From NCBI GenBank assembly GCA_903891415.1, contig CAITEH010000043.1, forward strand, positions 1 through 56,180: DNA of 56,180 nucleotides. The letters run 5' to 3'. Both the position numbers and the translations under genes were made by a program. Shown in pieces: positions 1 through 7,413 of the stretch (positions are counted from its first letter, which is position 1; each line of letters begins with the position of its first letter). The notes beneath the pieces are model-generated. The model did not search any database, was not told the DNA's origin, and worked only from the letters and a program-made list of their open reading frames with translations. Source of the stretch: Candidatus Firestoneibacteriota bacterium (GTDB taxonomy: Bacteria; Oederibacteriota; D2-FULL-39-29).

Positions 1-159
<159 letters not shown>

Positions 160-414
160 TGTTTATATTTTAGAGGTTTTAGCTCGTTTTAAATACAAAT
201 TTACTACACCTCAAAGTTTACTTAAACGTAACCTATTTATCTCTCAAAGAACACAAAAAAAAGAGCGCCGTGATAACGGCGCTCATTCAAAAAAACAGAA
301 ACAACGAACTCTTCAGCTCGTCATGGACTGCCTCTCGATTTTCTTGAATGAGGACCGTGCATAGTTATTATGTTAGCCACCTCTTCTTGCAAAGATTACT
401 GCTACTTAGTGGTA
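160..414 (-). other. rrn operon leader RNA, structured
   Basis: This is the stretch between the predicted start site (about 414) and the 16S gene. It contains a boxA-like antitermination signal at 241-253 (reverse complement TGTTCTTTGAGAG, close to the Bacillus boxA). Upstream of boxA is a strong intrinsic terminator (255-284). Further upstream, a 7-bp stem with one G-U pair and a GAAG loop lies at 304-321. It is enclosed by a 9-bp helix between 344-352 and 282-290, which shares three bases with the terminator stem. Another possible stem is GTTACCAC with GTGG(c)TAAC at 372-417. I did not find motifs of SRP RNA, RNase P RNA, tmRNA or a T-box. Confidence 0.5.
255..284 (-). terminator. Intrinsic terminator inside the rrn leader
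   Basis: An 8-bp perfect stem (263-270 with 277-284, GAGCGCCG/CGGCGCTC) with a 6-base loop is followed on the minus strand by eight uridines (255-262). It lies between the rrn promoter and the boxA, about 100 bases before the 16S gene. Confidence 0.75.
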
Positions 415-420
415 ACTATA

Positions 421-449
421 ATTATATACAATTTATTTGTATTTGTCAA
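421..449 (-). promoter_or_regulatory. Consensus sigma70 promoter of the rRNA operon
   Basis: On the minus strand TTGACA (444-449) and TATAAT (421-426) are separated by exactly 17 bases. Both hexamers match the consensus perfectly, as expected for an rRNA promoter. The predicted start is near 414. Confidence 0.85.
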
Positions 450-622
450 TGGGTAAACGTATTATTTTTTTATCCCATCTTTTAAAACGAGTAAAGGATT
501 ATACACAATGCCCCATAACTTGTCAAGTATTTAAGCAATTAATTTTCCTTGTTCTTTACAGGCAAAGAATACACCTTATGCCGTAAGGTTTTTATTGTGC
601 CTTGAAAATAGCAGGTTCTTTT

Positions 623-1087
623 TCAGTTTCCAAAACTCAGGAGGTTTTCCTCTAAAAAGATATCATCCGCAAGCAGTTCCAGATCAAAGTTATTTATTTC
701 TTTACTGTCCACTTCAAAAGCTCCGGAAAGAAGATATAACTCGTCAATTTCTGTTTCTTTATCCAGCGAAATATTATTATTATAGGAAACAAAGGACAGC
801 AGTACCAGAAGTACCAGGCCTGCCGCAAGCGGGACGCCAAAGAATTTCTTTGCAAGGTTCTGCGAACCCGCGAGTTTTTCTTTAACGGAAAAATAAAAAG
901 AACCGGGAATTCCCGGGCGGCTGACTTTTTGCATTCTCTCAAGGACCAGGGCCAGCGAGCGCAATTCCTCGGTACAAGCAGAACAGGTTTTCAAATGCTG
1001 TTCAAGTTCAATTTTTTCTTCCGCCGGAAGTTCGTTGTAATAATATTCTGTTATTTTTTGTTTAAAACCGCAGTCCGGTATCTTCAT
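623..1087 (-). CDS. Membrane-anchored zinc-finger anti-sigma factor
   Basis: A 154-residue protein with an N-terminal zinc-finger anti-sigma domain (His-x3-Cys-x2-Cys, HLKTCSAC, residues about 31-38) and one transmembrane helix at about residues 83-100 (GVPLAAGLVLLVLLSFVSY). The extracytoplasmic tail is about 50 residues and very acidic. Family knowledge: such proteins bind region 2/4 of their cognate ECF sigma factor and release it on signal. Its start overlaps the stop of the upstream sigma-factor gene (1084-1087, ATGA), so translation is probably coupled. No RsiW-like cleavage motif can be assigned by eye. It closes a three-gene operon with the sigma factor and a secreted repeat protein. 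Confidence 0.85.
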   Translation of the reverse strand: MKIPDCGFKQKITEYYYNELPAEEKIELEQHLKTCSACTEELRSLALVLERMQKVSRPGIPGSFYFSVKEKLAGSQNLAKKFFGVPLAAGLVLLVLLSFVSYNNNISLDKETEIDELYLLSGAFEVDSKEINNFDLELLADDIFLEENLLSFGN

Positions 1088-1749
1088 AACCTGCCATCCT
1101 TAAAATTTTTCTTCAATTTTTGTATCCCGTGGAACAACAGCGCTTTTACCGTTCCTGTTTTTATTTCCATGATCTCCGCGATATCTTTTATTTTAAAGCC
1201 CTGATAGTGCCTGAATTCAAACACCTGCCGTTCTCTTTTTGACAGTAATTCCAGGCTTTTCCAAACTTCGTTTTCAGTTTCTTTCGCGGCCAGTATCCAT
1301 TCCGGACCCTCTTTTTCGTTTACGGCCGGTGCCTTTTCCCTCTCCTGCGCGCCGGTGCCGCTTTTGTCCGTGTAGAAAAAAGAAAAAGTGTCTTTGAGCT
1401 TCTTTTTCCTTTTAAGATCAAGGCAAACATTTACCAGCAGCCGGTAATACCAGGTATAGAACCTGGATTCCCCCCTAAAACCTTTTATTTTCTTAAAGAC
1501 CCGGATAAAGGATTCCTGAACCGCATCTTTGGCCTCTTCCGTATTATGGAGCAGGCCAAAAGCTATAGAAAAAGCTCTGTCCTGATATTCTTCCACCAGA
1601 ACCCTGAACGATTGTTCGTCGCCGGATTTAAGGCCGGCAACCAGCTTAGCATCTTCCGCTTGCGGGGTAATCATAACAGGATTATAACCCGCTTTTTTTG
1701 TGAGTTCAAGGGCTAAACAAATCAATTTTTCCGGCCTTAGCAAGATCAA
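1084..1749 (-). CDS. ECF-family RNA polymerase sigma factor
   Basis: Region 2 is clear: an acidic N-terminus, then AKDAVQESFIRVFKKIKGF and the region 2.4 sequence FYTWYYRLLVNVCLDLKR. Region 4 is LELLSKRERQVFEF followed by an HTH, IKDIAEIMEIKTGTVKALL. The open frame allows a TTG start at 1749 that overlaps the stop of the upstream gene. An ATG at 1674 would give 196 residues, the more usual ECF length. Neither start has a convincing ribosome binding site, so I leave the longer frame. A low-complexity Lys/Glu-rich linker between regions 2 and 4 (about residues 120-155) is longer than usual. The partner anti-sigma gene follows with a 4-base overlap. Confidence 0.9.
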   Translation of the reverse strand: MILLRPEKLICLALELTKKAGYNPVMITPQAEDAKLVAGLKSGDEQSFRVLVEEYQDRAFSIAFGLLHNTEEAKDAVQESFIRVFKKIKGFRGESRFYTWYYRLLVNVCLDLKRKKKLKDTFSFFYTDKSGTGAQEREKAPAVNEKEGPEWILAAKETENEVWKSLELLSKRERQVFEFRHYQGFKIKDIAEIMEIKTGTVKALLFHGIQKLKKNFKDGRL

Positions 1750-2315
1750 GGGGTTTTAGCTTTTGCGGCGTTTAACCACTCTTTTCTTTTTTTTAACATT
1801 TCCCTGAATTTTTCCGGATATTTTTCTTTCAGCGTTTTAAGCCTGGCTTTAATATTTTTCTTTAGTTCCAGCCATTTATCAGGATCATTATTTTTTAAAT
1901 TTTTCAGCCGTTCCCGCATCCTTTTTATGAATCTTGCGAACTCCTCCGGATCATCCTTCCGGAGTTTTTTGAGCCGCTCAAGACGCTTTTCCAGGACTTC
2001 GTTGAACTTCACCGGATCATTCTGCTGCAGCTCCTTAAGCGCTTCGCGCCTGCGCTCCTTAAGCCGGTTAAACCTTTCCGGGTCATTTACTTTAAGAGCT
2101 TCAAGTTTTTCTCTCAGTTTTTTCATAAGTTCAGCAAATTTCTCGGGATTTTTCTCCTTAAGTTCTTTGAGCTTTTCCCTGTCAAATCCCGGTATTCCGC
2201 TGCCTGCTTTGCCTTTTTCCTTGTTATCCGCGCTATTATCAGAGGAAAGTACAAAGGAAACGGCAATAAAGCCGATTAATACTGCTTTTAGGGATATTTT
2301 AATAAGGTTTTTCAT
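1746..2315 (-). CDS. Secreted protein with six exact 22-residue amphipathic repeats
   Basis: Starting at the ATG at 2315, which has GGAGAA six bases upstream, gives 189 residues. An in-frame start at 2381 has no such site and would bury the signal peptide. Residues 1-25 form a signal peptide (MKNLIKISLKAVLIGFIAVS). Residues 45-180 are a highly charged helical region. Six units carry an (N/D)DPEKF-like motif whose prolines fall at residues 57, 79, 101, 123, 145 and 167, an exact 22-residue period. Each unit continues with a pattern like LxKKxRERLxxLK. I do not recognise a family. The geometry resembles proline-punctuated 22-mer amphipathic helices of exchangeable apolipoproteins, but no homology is claimed. 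It is first in an operon with an ECF sigma factor and anti-sigma factor, so it may be the sensor or the main output of that system. Confidence 0.8.
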   Translation of the reverse strand: MKNLIKISLKAVLIGFIAVSFVLSSDNSADNKEKGKAGSGIPGFDREKLKELKEKNPEKFAELMKKLREKLEALKVNDPERFNRLKERRREALKELQQNDPVKFNEVLEKRLERLKKLRKDDPEEFARFIKRMRERLKNLKNNDPDKWLELKKNIKARLKTLKEKYPEKFREMLKKRKEWLNAAKAKTP

Positions 2316-2364: not shown

Positions 2365-2389
2365 GACGCGGAACTGCGCAAAAAAGTTT
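2365..2389 (-). promoter_or_regulatory. Possible ECF-type promoter of the repeat-protein/sigma operon
   Basis: On the minus strand AAAC(T)n at 2386-2389 precedes CGTCAAA, with CGTC at 2365-2368. This resembles ECF promoters of the GGAAC...CGTC type with about 17 bases between the elements. It would give a leader of about 45 bases before the ATG at 2315. The -35 element is imperfect (AAAC rather than GGAAC). Confidence 0.35.
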
Positions 2390-2418
2390 ATGCCAGCCGG
2401 CAGGCCCTGTTCTTTAAT

Positions 2419-5352: not shown

Positions 5353-6897
5353 ATGGCAAAAGATATTAAAACAAATCCGGAAGAAATAGCGTCCATACTA
5401 AAAGGCCTGATAGCCGATTTTGAGAGCAAGCTGGACCGCAAAAATACCGGGGTGGTCCTCCAGGTAGGCGACGGCATCTCCCGGGTTTACGGGCTCGACG
5501 AAGTCAGGTACTTTGAGCTTGTTGAATTCAGCGGCGAAATATTCGGGATCGCGTTAAATCTTGAACGGGATAATGTCGGAGTTGTTATTCTGGGCGATGA
5601 TAAGATGATAAAAGAAGGAGATATAGTAAAGTGCACGGGCCGGGTAGTGGAAGTCCCGACAGGCAGGGAACTCTGCGGAAGAGTCATAGACGCGCTGGGT
5701 AATCCTCTGGACGGAAAAGGCCCGATCCCCTCAAAAAAATCAAGGCCCATTGAAATGCGCGCGCCCTCAGTTATTGAAAGAGCCCCGGTCAAAAATCCCC
5801 TGCAAACCGGAATTAAGGCCATAGACTCCATGATACCTATAGGCCGCGGGCAGCGCGAGCTTATAATCGGAGACCGGCAGACCGGCAAGACAGCAATTGC
5901 TATTGACGCAATAATAAACCAGAAAAACAGCGACGTTATCTGTATTTATGTCGCCATCGGCCAGAAAAAATCAACGGTCGCCCAGGTAGTCGATGTGCTT
6001 GAAAAGAACGGGGCCATGGAACATACCATTGTTATTTCCGCGACCGCTTCGGACCCTGCTTCGCTTCAATATATAGCCCCTTATGCCGGCTGTTCTATCG
6101 GCGAGGAATTCAGAGATGCCGGAAAACACGCCCTGATAATATATGATGATCTTTCAAAACATGCTGTTGCGTACAGGGAAATATCTCTTTTGCTCCGCAG
6201 GCCGCCCGGCAGAGAGGCCTACCCCGGGGATATTTTTTATCTCCATTCCCGCCTGCTTGAAAGAGCGGCAAAATTGAACGAACAAAAAGGCGGAGGGACT
6301 TTAACAGCGCTCCCGATCATTGAAACCCAGGCAGGCGACATTTCCGCTTATATACCTACAAATGTTATCTCTATAACCGACGGCCAGATCTACCTTGAAG
6401 GGAACCTTTTCTACTCGGGTATCCGGCCGGCCATTAACGCGGGCCTTTCGGTTTCCCGTGTCGGCGGTTCGGCCCAGACCAAAGCCATGAAGAAGGTCGC
6501 CGGAGGGCTCCGGAATACTTTGAGCCAGTATTGGGAACTGGTTAACTTCGCGCAATTCGGTGCGGAGCTGGACAAAGCCACCCAGTCCCAGCTTTTCCGC
6601 GGGCAGCGCCTTGTGGAAATACTTAAGCAGAACCAGTACGCGCCCGTGGCCATGGAACGGCAGGTTATGATACTTTTTGCGGTTACCAGAGGCCTTTTGG
6701 ATGACCTGCCCGTTGAAAAGATCAAGAATTTTGAGGCCGGGTTCTATAAATTTGCCGATGAAAATTATCACAAACTGGTCGCCGGAATAAAGACTTCTTT
6801 AGACCTTGACGCCGGCGCGGAAGAGGCCCTGAACAAAGCTATAATTCAGTATAAACAAATATTTATTGCCAGCGAAAACGGTGCTCCGGAGGACTAA
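5353..6897 (+). CDS. atpA: F-type ATP synthase subunit alpha
   Basis: A 514-residue alpha subunit. The Walker A motif is GDRQTGKT (about residues 170-177), and the alpha-specific features [12 protein letters not shown] and [15 protein letters not shown] are present; the catalytic beta subunit would read GGAGVGKT. Full length for the family. GGGG lies about eight bases before the ATG. The gene is normally followed by atpG, atpD and atpC, but here the next gene starts directly after the stop codon and encodes a cyclic-nucleotide-binding protein. The F1 genes gamma, beta and epsilon are therefore elsewhere in the genome. Confidence 0.97.
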
Positions 6898-7413
6898 ATG
6901 CCAAAAATATTTGAACGCATAAAAAATATACTGGTCGGAGAGAAAACAGAAATTGTTAAGATCCTCGAAAAGGTACCGATCTTTGAGGGTTTGAATCTGC
7001 TTGAACTTAAAAAGATCGAGATAATAACTCACGAGCGGGATTATATGGATAAAGAAGTTATTTTCCATGAAAAAGAACCCGGCGCCGGCATGTATATAAT
7101 TAAATCCGGAAGCATTAAACTTTCAAAAAAAGCCGACAATAAAGAGATCTTCCTTATGTCCCTGACGGCCGGGGATTTTTTCGGGGAAATCGCGCTGCTG
7201 GATGAATCTCCAAGATCGGCAACAGCGGCTTCCGAGGGCAGGACCAAGCTGCTCGGTTTCTACCGGCCGGACTTTCTTGATCTGCTAAAACGCGAACCAA
7301 AACTGGGTTCCAAGGTGCTGCTCAAACTCGCGCAGATGATCGCCACCAGATTAAGAAATACCACCGACTCCAGGATCAAGGGAACTCCTGATGGAAACGA
7401 AGCAAAATATTAA
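6898..7413 (+). CDS. Cyclic-nucleotide-binding (Crp-fold) domain protein
   Basis: A 171-residue protein with a single cNMP-binding domain at about residues 20-140. The phosphate-binding cassette is FGEIALLDESPRSATA, close to the cAMP/cGMP-binding signature FGE-(A/L)-x6-R-(T/S)-A. There is no C-terminal helix-turn-helix, so it is probably not a DNA-binding Crp/FNR regulator. It starts immediately after the atpA stop and overlaps the next gene by 23 bases, so it appears cotranscribed with ATP synthase. Which ligand it binds, and whether it modulates a partner, cannot be read from the sequence. Confidence 0.85.
   Translation: MPKIFERIKNILVGEKTEIVKILEKVPIFEGLNLLELKKIEIITHERDYMDKEVIFHEKEPGAGMYIIKSGSIKLSKKADNKEIFLMSLTAGDFFGEIALLDESPRSATAASEGRTKLLGFYRPDFLDLLKREPKLGSKVLLKLAQMIATRLRNTTDSRIKGTPDGNEAKY

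Follow-up and report, generated by a model that had tools for sequence, protein, structure and literature searches.

Among the described systems closest to the locus reported here are CpxP, which acts on CpxA in the E. coli Cpx system, and Spy and ZraP of the LTXXQ family (PF07813), all of which are exported, helical and cationic. CpxP is induced by the stress regulator that it damps; its concave surface carries positive charge and binds the negatively charged CpxA (PMC4160245). A third, extracytoplasmic partner is also found in CnrYXH of Cupriavidus, a three-gene ECF module composed of the sigma factor CnrH, the anti-sigma factor CnrY and the sensor CnrX (PMC4598750). Likewise, the RpoE-RseA-RseB system joins an ECF sigma factor and a single-pass anti-sigma factor to a periplasmic accessory protein whose gene lies with theirs (PMC4598750, PMC8103513); this protein, RseB, is a binder of LPS and protects the anti-sigma factor against DegS. 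Self-regulated ECF factors have a promoter with AAC in the –35 and CGT in the –10 element (PMC8103513). Outside these regulatory systems, exchangeable apolipoproteins (PF01442) are made of charged, proline-punctuated helices of 22 residues.

We analysed a stretch of 56,180 nucleotides (the window) from a Candidatus Firestoneibacteriota bacterium. On its minus strand lies an operon in which a gene for a repeat protein is followed by the gene for a sigma factor and then by that for an anti-sigma factor. The repeat protein (1746..2315, minus strand) is strongly basic and 189 aa long; its reading frame is backed by orthologues at 46–58% identity and by AF2 helices that are broken at prolines. Residues 1–25 (2241..2315) look like a signal peptide from the sequence itself, and relatives also start with a hydrophobic stretch. 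The preliminary description of this DNA had pointed to an exact 22-residue proline period with no indel, and this held: prolines occur at residues 57, 79, 101, 123, 145, 167 and also 189, with one further proline at 42. When the mature sequence was shuffled 200,000 times, at most four prolines were ever chained at this spacing, compared with the seven observed. Six units of 22 residues occupy residues 55–186 (1758..2153), and each step carries the motif (N/K/D)(N/D/Y)P(E/D/V)(K/R/E)(F/W).

At 98.2 degrees, none of 1000 shuffles attained the mean hydrophobic moment of the repeat core, so the core has a hydrophobic face, as the preliminary description required, though a narrow one. Structure prediction, which had been proposed as a check, gave helices that are interrupted by a single residue at each proline in the window protein, with modest confidence (pLDDT 62, from an alignment of three sequences). 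A model of a relative with 26-residue units (L014) had blocks with values of about 76–94 within the repeats and a pTM of 0.41. With good local confidence in the L014 repeats but this low pTM and the pLDDT of the window protein, we trust the helices and not their packing.

The sigma gene (1084..1674, minus strand) encodes 196 aa with Pfam matches to Sigma70_r2 (1e-15) and Sigma70_r4_2 (5e-13), scores 99 bits versus 42.9 with the NCBIfam model sigma70-ECF, and has its ATG at the same point in all four orthologues. The protein has sigma2 and sigma4 domains only and its gene adjoins that of an anti-sigma factor, which identifies it as an ECF sigma factor. The anti-sigma factor (623..1087, minus strand; 154 aa) combines a cytoplasmic N-terminal zf-HC2 domain (9e-8) with one TM segment (residues 82–100), as in Class I membrane anti-sigma factors, and ends in an acidic extracytoplasmic tail of 54 aa with a net charge of –12 (626..787). 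The ECF sigma/anti-sigma pair of the preliminary description is thereby confirmed.

Relatives of the repeat protein were sought in the window's own group (45 genomes) and in a different, larger sample of Omnitrophota. Three genomes of the window's family have orthologues that keep the 22-residue step and lie between ATP synthase genes and the sigma gene. Within the window's order, a close sigma orthologue (55–72% identity) and the repeat gene were both present in four genomes and both absent in five. Among Omnitrophota, 48 of 384 genomes encode a repeat protein (E ≤ 1e-8). A sigma gene lies directly 3' of the repeat gene on the same strand in 33 of the 34 loci with downstream sequence, and in 7/7 further repeat loci that we examined. 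The search for such repeats beside ECF sigma genes, suggested in the preliminary description, thus returned 40 of 41 loci, an almost absolute linkage that fits both the secreted helical protein encoded with an ECF pair and the envelope-stress type of circuit proposed there. The one exception (L013 5524-6735, CP070807.1) encodes a 404-aa relative with mixed spacing of 26, 44 and 52 and has no sigma gene within about 6 kb.

The 31 repeat-linked sigma factors that we placed in a maximum-likelihood tree, taken from both the window's family and Omnitrophota, all formed one clade (support 99/97), and 12 other ECF-type factors from the same or related genomes fell outside it. The three-gene module is inherited as a unit. 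Candidates rejected as relatives were RmuC-like coiled coils (L007–L009), a sequence with internal stops (L010) and a kinase-like protein with one chance NPEKF (L015).

Like the linkage, the unit lengths in relatives do not contradict the preliminary description: they are not random, and 22 or 26 residues dominate. In the Omnitrophota sister form the step is 26 in most units, and the last unit is often 22 or 24. Consensus sequences were built from 31 units of 22 residues and 97 of 26 residues. In both, the proline stands in (N/D)PE(K)(F/Y)xE, behind which come two mostly hydrophobic positions, and is preceded by L-x-x-L-(K/R)-E. The 26-mers have four extra residues, about one helical turn, inserted in the charged middle. 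Because both ends of the unit are alike and length is added in between, the elbow around the proline is the conserved part and the arm is variable. Repeat number and C-terminal additions also differ widely among members; many in Omnitrophota, L045, L053 and L064 among them, have long DRREDVR heptad-like arrays behind the repeats.

These comparisons bear on the analogy with apolipoproteins drawn in the preliminary description, which did not imply homology. In an apolipoprotein-like protein, an unbroken amphipathic 11/3 helix with kinks at its prolines would wrap lipid. The exact 22-residue period, the strong moment at 98.2 degrees and weak matches to the Pfam Apolipoprotein family (E 0.05 for the window protein, 1e-7 for L005) are in keeping with such a protein. 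However, these matches reach 13.7 bits for the window protein and at most 31.9 bits in an orthologue, compared with a curated cut-off of 90. Hydrophobic residues recur reliably at only about 5 of 22 positions; they are confined to the elbows, and the middle of the unit is charged. The continuous 11-residue amphipathic phase holds for 22-mers and fails for the 26-mers of the sister form, the commonest form, since 26 is no multiple of 11. We consider lipid wrapping of this kind very improbable.

No relative of the repeat protein was found in Pfam, NCBIfam or the PDB. The PDB sequence search returned designed helical proteins only (E near 0.09), and Foldseek with both AF2 models gave nothing below E 1.9, with a TM on the query of at most 0.22; neither Pfam nor Foldseek on these two models revealed a relative of Spy or CpxP in fold or family. 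The LTXXQ family (PF07813), Metal_resist (PF13801) and DUF3106 (PF11304) were absent among the best 25 Pfam matches listed for the window protein, and PF07813 had no match in L005, L012, L014 and L047 at E ≤ 0.01. DUF3106 proteins, a possible lead, are secreted proteins with short helical Pro-containing repeats encoded near ECF sigma genes in Proteobacteria, with a repeat motif and spacing that presumably differ from those seen here. Our literature search, in which coverage of subscription journals was thin, found no paper on the three-gene module and no mention of DUF3106. The repeat protein defines a new protein family within a known kind of circuit, conserved in at least two phyla. The observation in the preliminary description is therefore real, and larger than was stated there.

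The operon is preceded by an ECF-type promoter, TAAACTTTTTTGCGCAGTTCCGCGTC (2365..2390, minus strand), with TAAAC as –35 and CGTC as –10, and this dyad is kept in relatives. When we looked for dyads with no motif given in advance, AAAC-N14-18-CGTC emerged before the repeat gene in 32/36 loci, compared with 0.7 expected in shuffles. The full element, TAAACyTTTt-N-CGTCtAA (with spacing, TAAACyTTT-N12-14-CGTCtAA), occurs in both the window's family and Omnitrophota. In the window the conserved arrangement AAC-N16/17-CGT in front of the operon is that expected of a self-regulated ECF promoter. The presence of this promoter before the repeat gene in both groups makes self-induction of the module almost certain, as far as can be judged from promoter sequence. 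A second, internal promoter of the housekeeping type (TTGAAC-17-TATAAT; 1681..1709, minus strand) ends 6 nt before the sigma ATG, and its TATAAT is at the same distance from that ATG in all four orthologues. From this conserved position we consider a basal, leaderless transcript for sigma and anti-sigma factor probable. In the window's family the housekeeping promoter lies downstream of the repeat gene and precedes only the sigma and anti-sigma genes. The repeat protein is thus probably made only while the sigma factor is active, with the pair present at a basal level, and would be a stress-induced output or feedback part rather than a constitutive sensor.

The preliminary description had proposed an envelope-surface or lipid/metal-binding protein whose state the anti-sigma factor reads. 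Taken as a constitutive sensor, this protein would always be present and would work in the manner of CnrX or RseB. The operon linkage and the opposite charges described below agree with such a sensor, and RseB and CnrX are precedents for it (PMC4598750). The type of circuit and the tie to sigma and anti-sigma factor stand. Constitutive sensing does not fit the inducible promoter before the repeat gene and the housekeeping promoter behind it. Residues 31–189 contain neither His nor Cys, so we rejected metal binding through these ligands. Compared with CnrX, then, the protein has an inducible promoter, a repeat architecture and no His or Cys; we found no sequence similarity to RseB. A constitutive sensor is accordingly improbable in our estimation.

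We observed a consistent charge pattern. At 35 of 36 loci the repeat core carries a net positive charge; at the remaining one it is neutral. The anti-sigma factors of the 21 complete linked loci all have an acidic extracytoplasmic portion (–5 to –33, median –12). By contrast, the outer part ranged from –2 to +9 at ten other ECF loci in the same genomes, none of which has an acidic tail (Fisher 2e-8 if the loci were independent, which they are not, as they share descent). With its basic repeat core and acidic anti-sigma tail, the pair resembles CpxP and CpxA, the latter also having negative charge outside (PMC4160245). The repeat protein probably also shares with CpxP induction by the regulator that it damps. 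It differs from CpxP, Spy and ZraP in being a chain of proline-elbow repeats, and its partner would be an ECF anti-sigma factor, not a histidine kinase.

From these data we infer, for the repeat protein, a protective role, binding to the acidic tail and a negative sign of feedback. The constitutive leaderless promoter would supply sigma factor and membrane anti-sigma factor. An envelope signal would release the sigma factor, which would fire the ECF promoter before the repeat gene, raising repeat protein, sigma and anti-sigma factor together and switching on other secreted proteins. The exported repeat protein, pictured as short cationic helices chained at hydrophobic N/D-P-E-K-F/Y elbows, would act outside the inner membrane in a protective, chaperone- or scaffold-like way, binding envelope material that is anionic or unfolded. 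When unoccupied, it would dock on the acidic anti-sigma tail and damp the response, as CpxP does on CpxA. We hold the chances to be even that the locus is a self-amplifying ECF envelope-stress module of this sort, with a CpxP-like protective repeat protein that also damps the response through the anti-sigma tail.

In the strongest competing reading, the repeat protein is a pure effector and gives no feedback. It would be an envelope coat or scaffold with a structural or protective function, simply the main product of the sigma factor, and would make no contact with the anti-sigma factor; the acidic tail would then sense, for example, polycations or the loss of divalent ions. The repeat gene is the first behind the ECF promoter, and the other regulon candidates described below are likewise secreted, low in complexity and charged. 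The wide variation in repeat number and C-terminal tails would also be easier to reconcile with a structural effector than with a precise regulator. Charges of repeat core and tail did not co-vary (Spearman 0.18, p 0.45), which, like the lack of a Spy/CpxP relative and the absence of a sigma gene near L013, counts against feedback. On the other hand, the repeat gene is nearly always within the sigma/anti-sigma operon, beyond merely carrying the promoter; it is missing together with the sigma orthologue; and repeat core and tail are oppositely charged. We regard a pure effector as a serious possibility, though short of an even one. For the feedback model, we suggest, with somewhat less than even confidence, an undescribed class of ECF signalling in at least two uncultured phyla, in which a modular cationic chain of proline-elbow helices, with arms that vary by whole helical turns (22 or 26 residues), serves as a self-induced ligand for the acidic outer tail of the anti-sigma factor and so exerts feedback. 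If charge docking is true, it offers a simple and testable means by which a secreted, protective protein can be wired back to the anti-sigma factor encoded with it.

The strict ECF element also occurs away from repeat genes. It had 40 matches in the 48 Omnitrophota genomes, compared with none for a reversed control, and most of these precede repeat genes. The ten non-repeat matches with a readable gene 0–156 nt away all precede products with signal-peptide-like starts. These include EF-hand-like and PPG-repeat proteins, a DRRED-repeat protein, an LTEAQK/LTPAQK protein and a YPHGYYYWPP family present in three genomes. Two secreted EF-hand-like proteins of Omnitrophota (L130, L138) have PPGxxGG repeats and the same promoter element, and L135, which lacks the repeats, has a DRREDVR array with an ECF promoter element of its own.

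In the window's family the strict pattern gave nine matches versus three in the control. They lie before four repeat genes, L086 and L097 (small secreted helical proteins with an LTxEQ motif and a KNPELY elbow), L083 (Metal_resist-like, E 9e-5, under that family's cut-off) and L092 (a secreted protein); the ninth, L082, has no convincing gene. A looser pattern was no commoner than its reversed control (24 versus 24), so lone sites in the window's own genome that lack support in a relative are candidates only. A regulon of secreted proteins under the repeat-linked sigma factor is strongly suggested by these sites. This gives an unannotated family a regulatory address: an inducer, a promoter and co-regulated secreted genes. 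The six Omnitrophota genomes that we checked have only four to six sigma-like genes each, the repeat-linked one among them, so the module may be a main envelope response of these uncultivated bacteria. Small secreted proteins that join an LTxEQK motif with a KNPELY elbow (L086, L076, L097 and L031) perhaps connect the repeat family with LTXXQ proteins.

On the module's strand, directly behind the anti-sigma gene, lies a 16S rRNA gene that starts at 159 (window 1-159). Two perfect TTGACA-17-TATAAT promoters precede it (421-526, minus strand), with a terminator-like hairpin and T run between them and the gene (263..284, minus strand). Judged from ORF debris, rRNA-like sequence also appears behind the module in G002 and G004. 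ATP synthase genes run opposite to the module from 2456, and the cluster (window 5353-7413) proceeds from atpI to atpA and then to a cyclic-nucleotide-binding protein, not to atpG/D/C, an order also present in G001, G002 and G004. The window's genome has two more ECF loci with a gene for a Spy/CpxP-type lipoprotein just before the sigma gene, one matching PF07813 at 9e-11 (L016 4948-6969, G000:C78) and one judged by eye (L074, G000:C27). Downstream at the former are a CPDC/NPEMY protein and efflux genes of the TolC-HlyD-MacB type. In a sister family, f2 (L020 4093-4695, L024 1497-2123), a secreted helical CPxC/NPExY protein adjoins a two-component system and a P-type cation ATPase.
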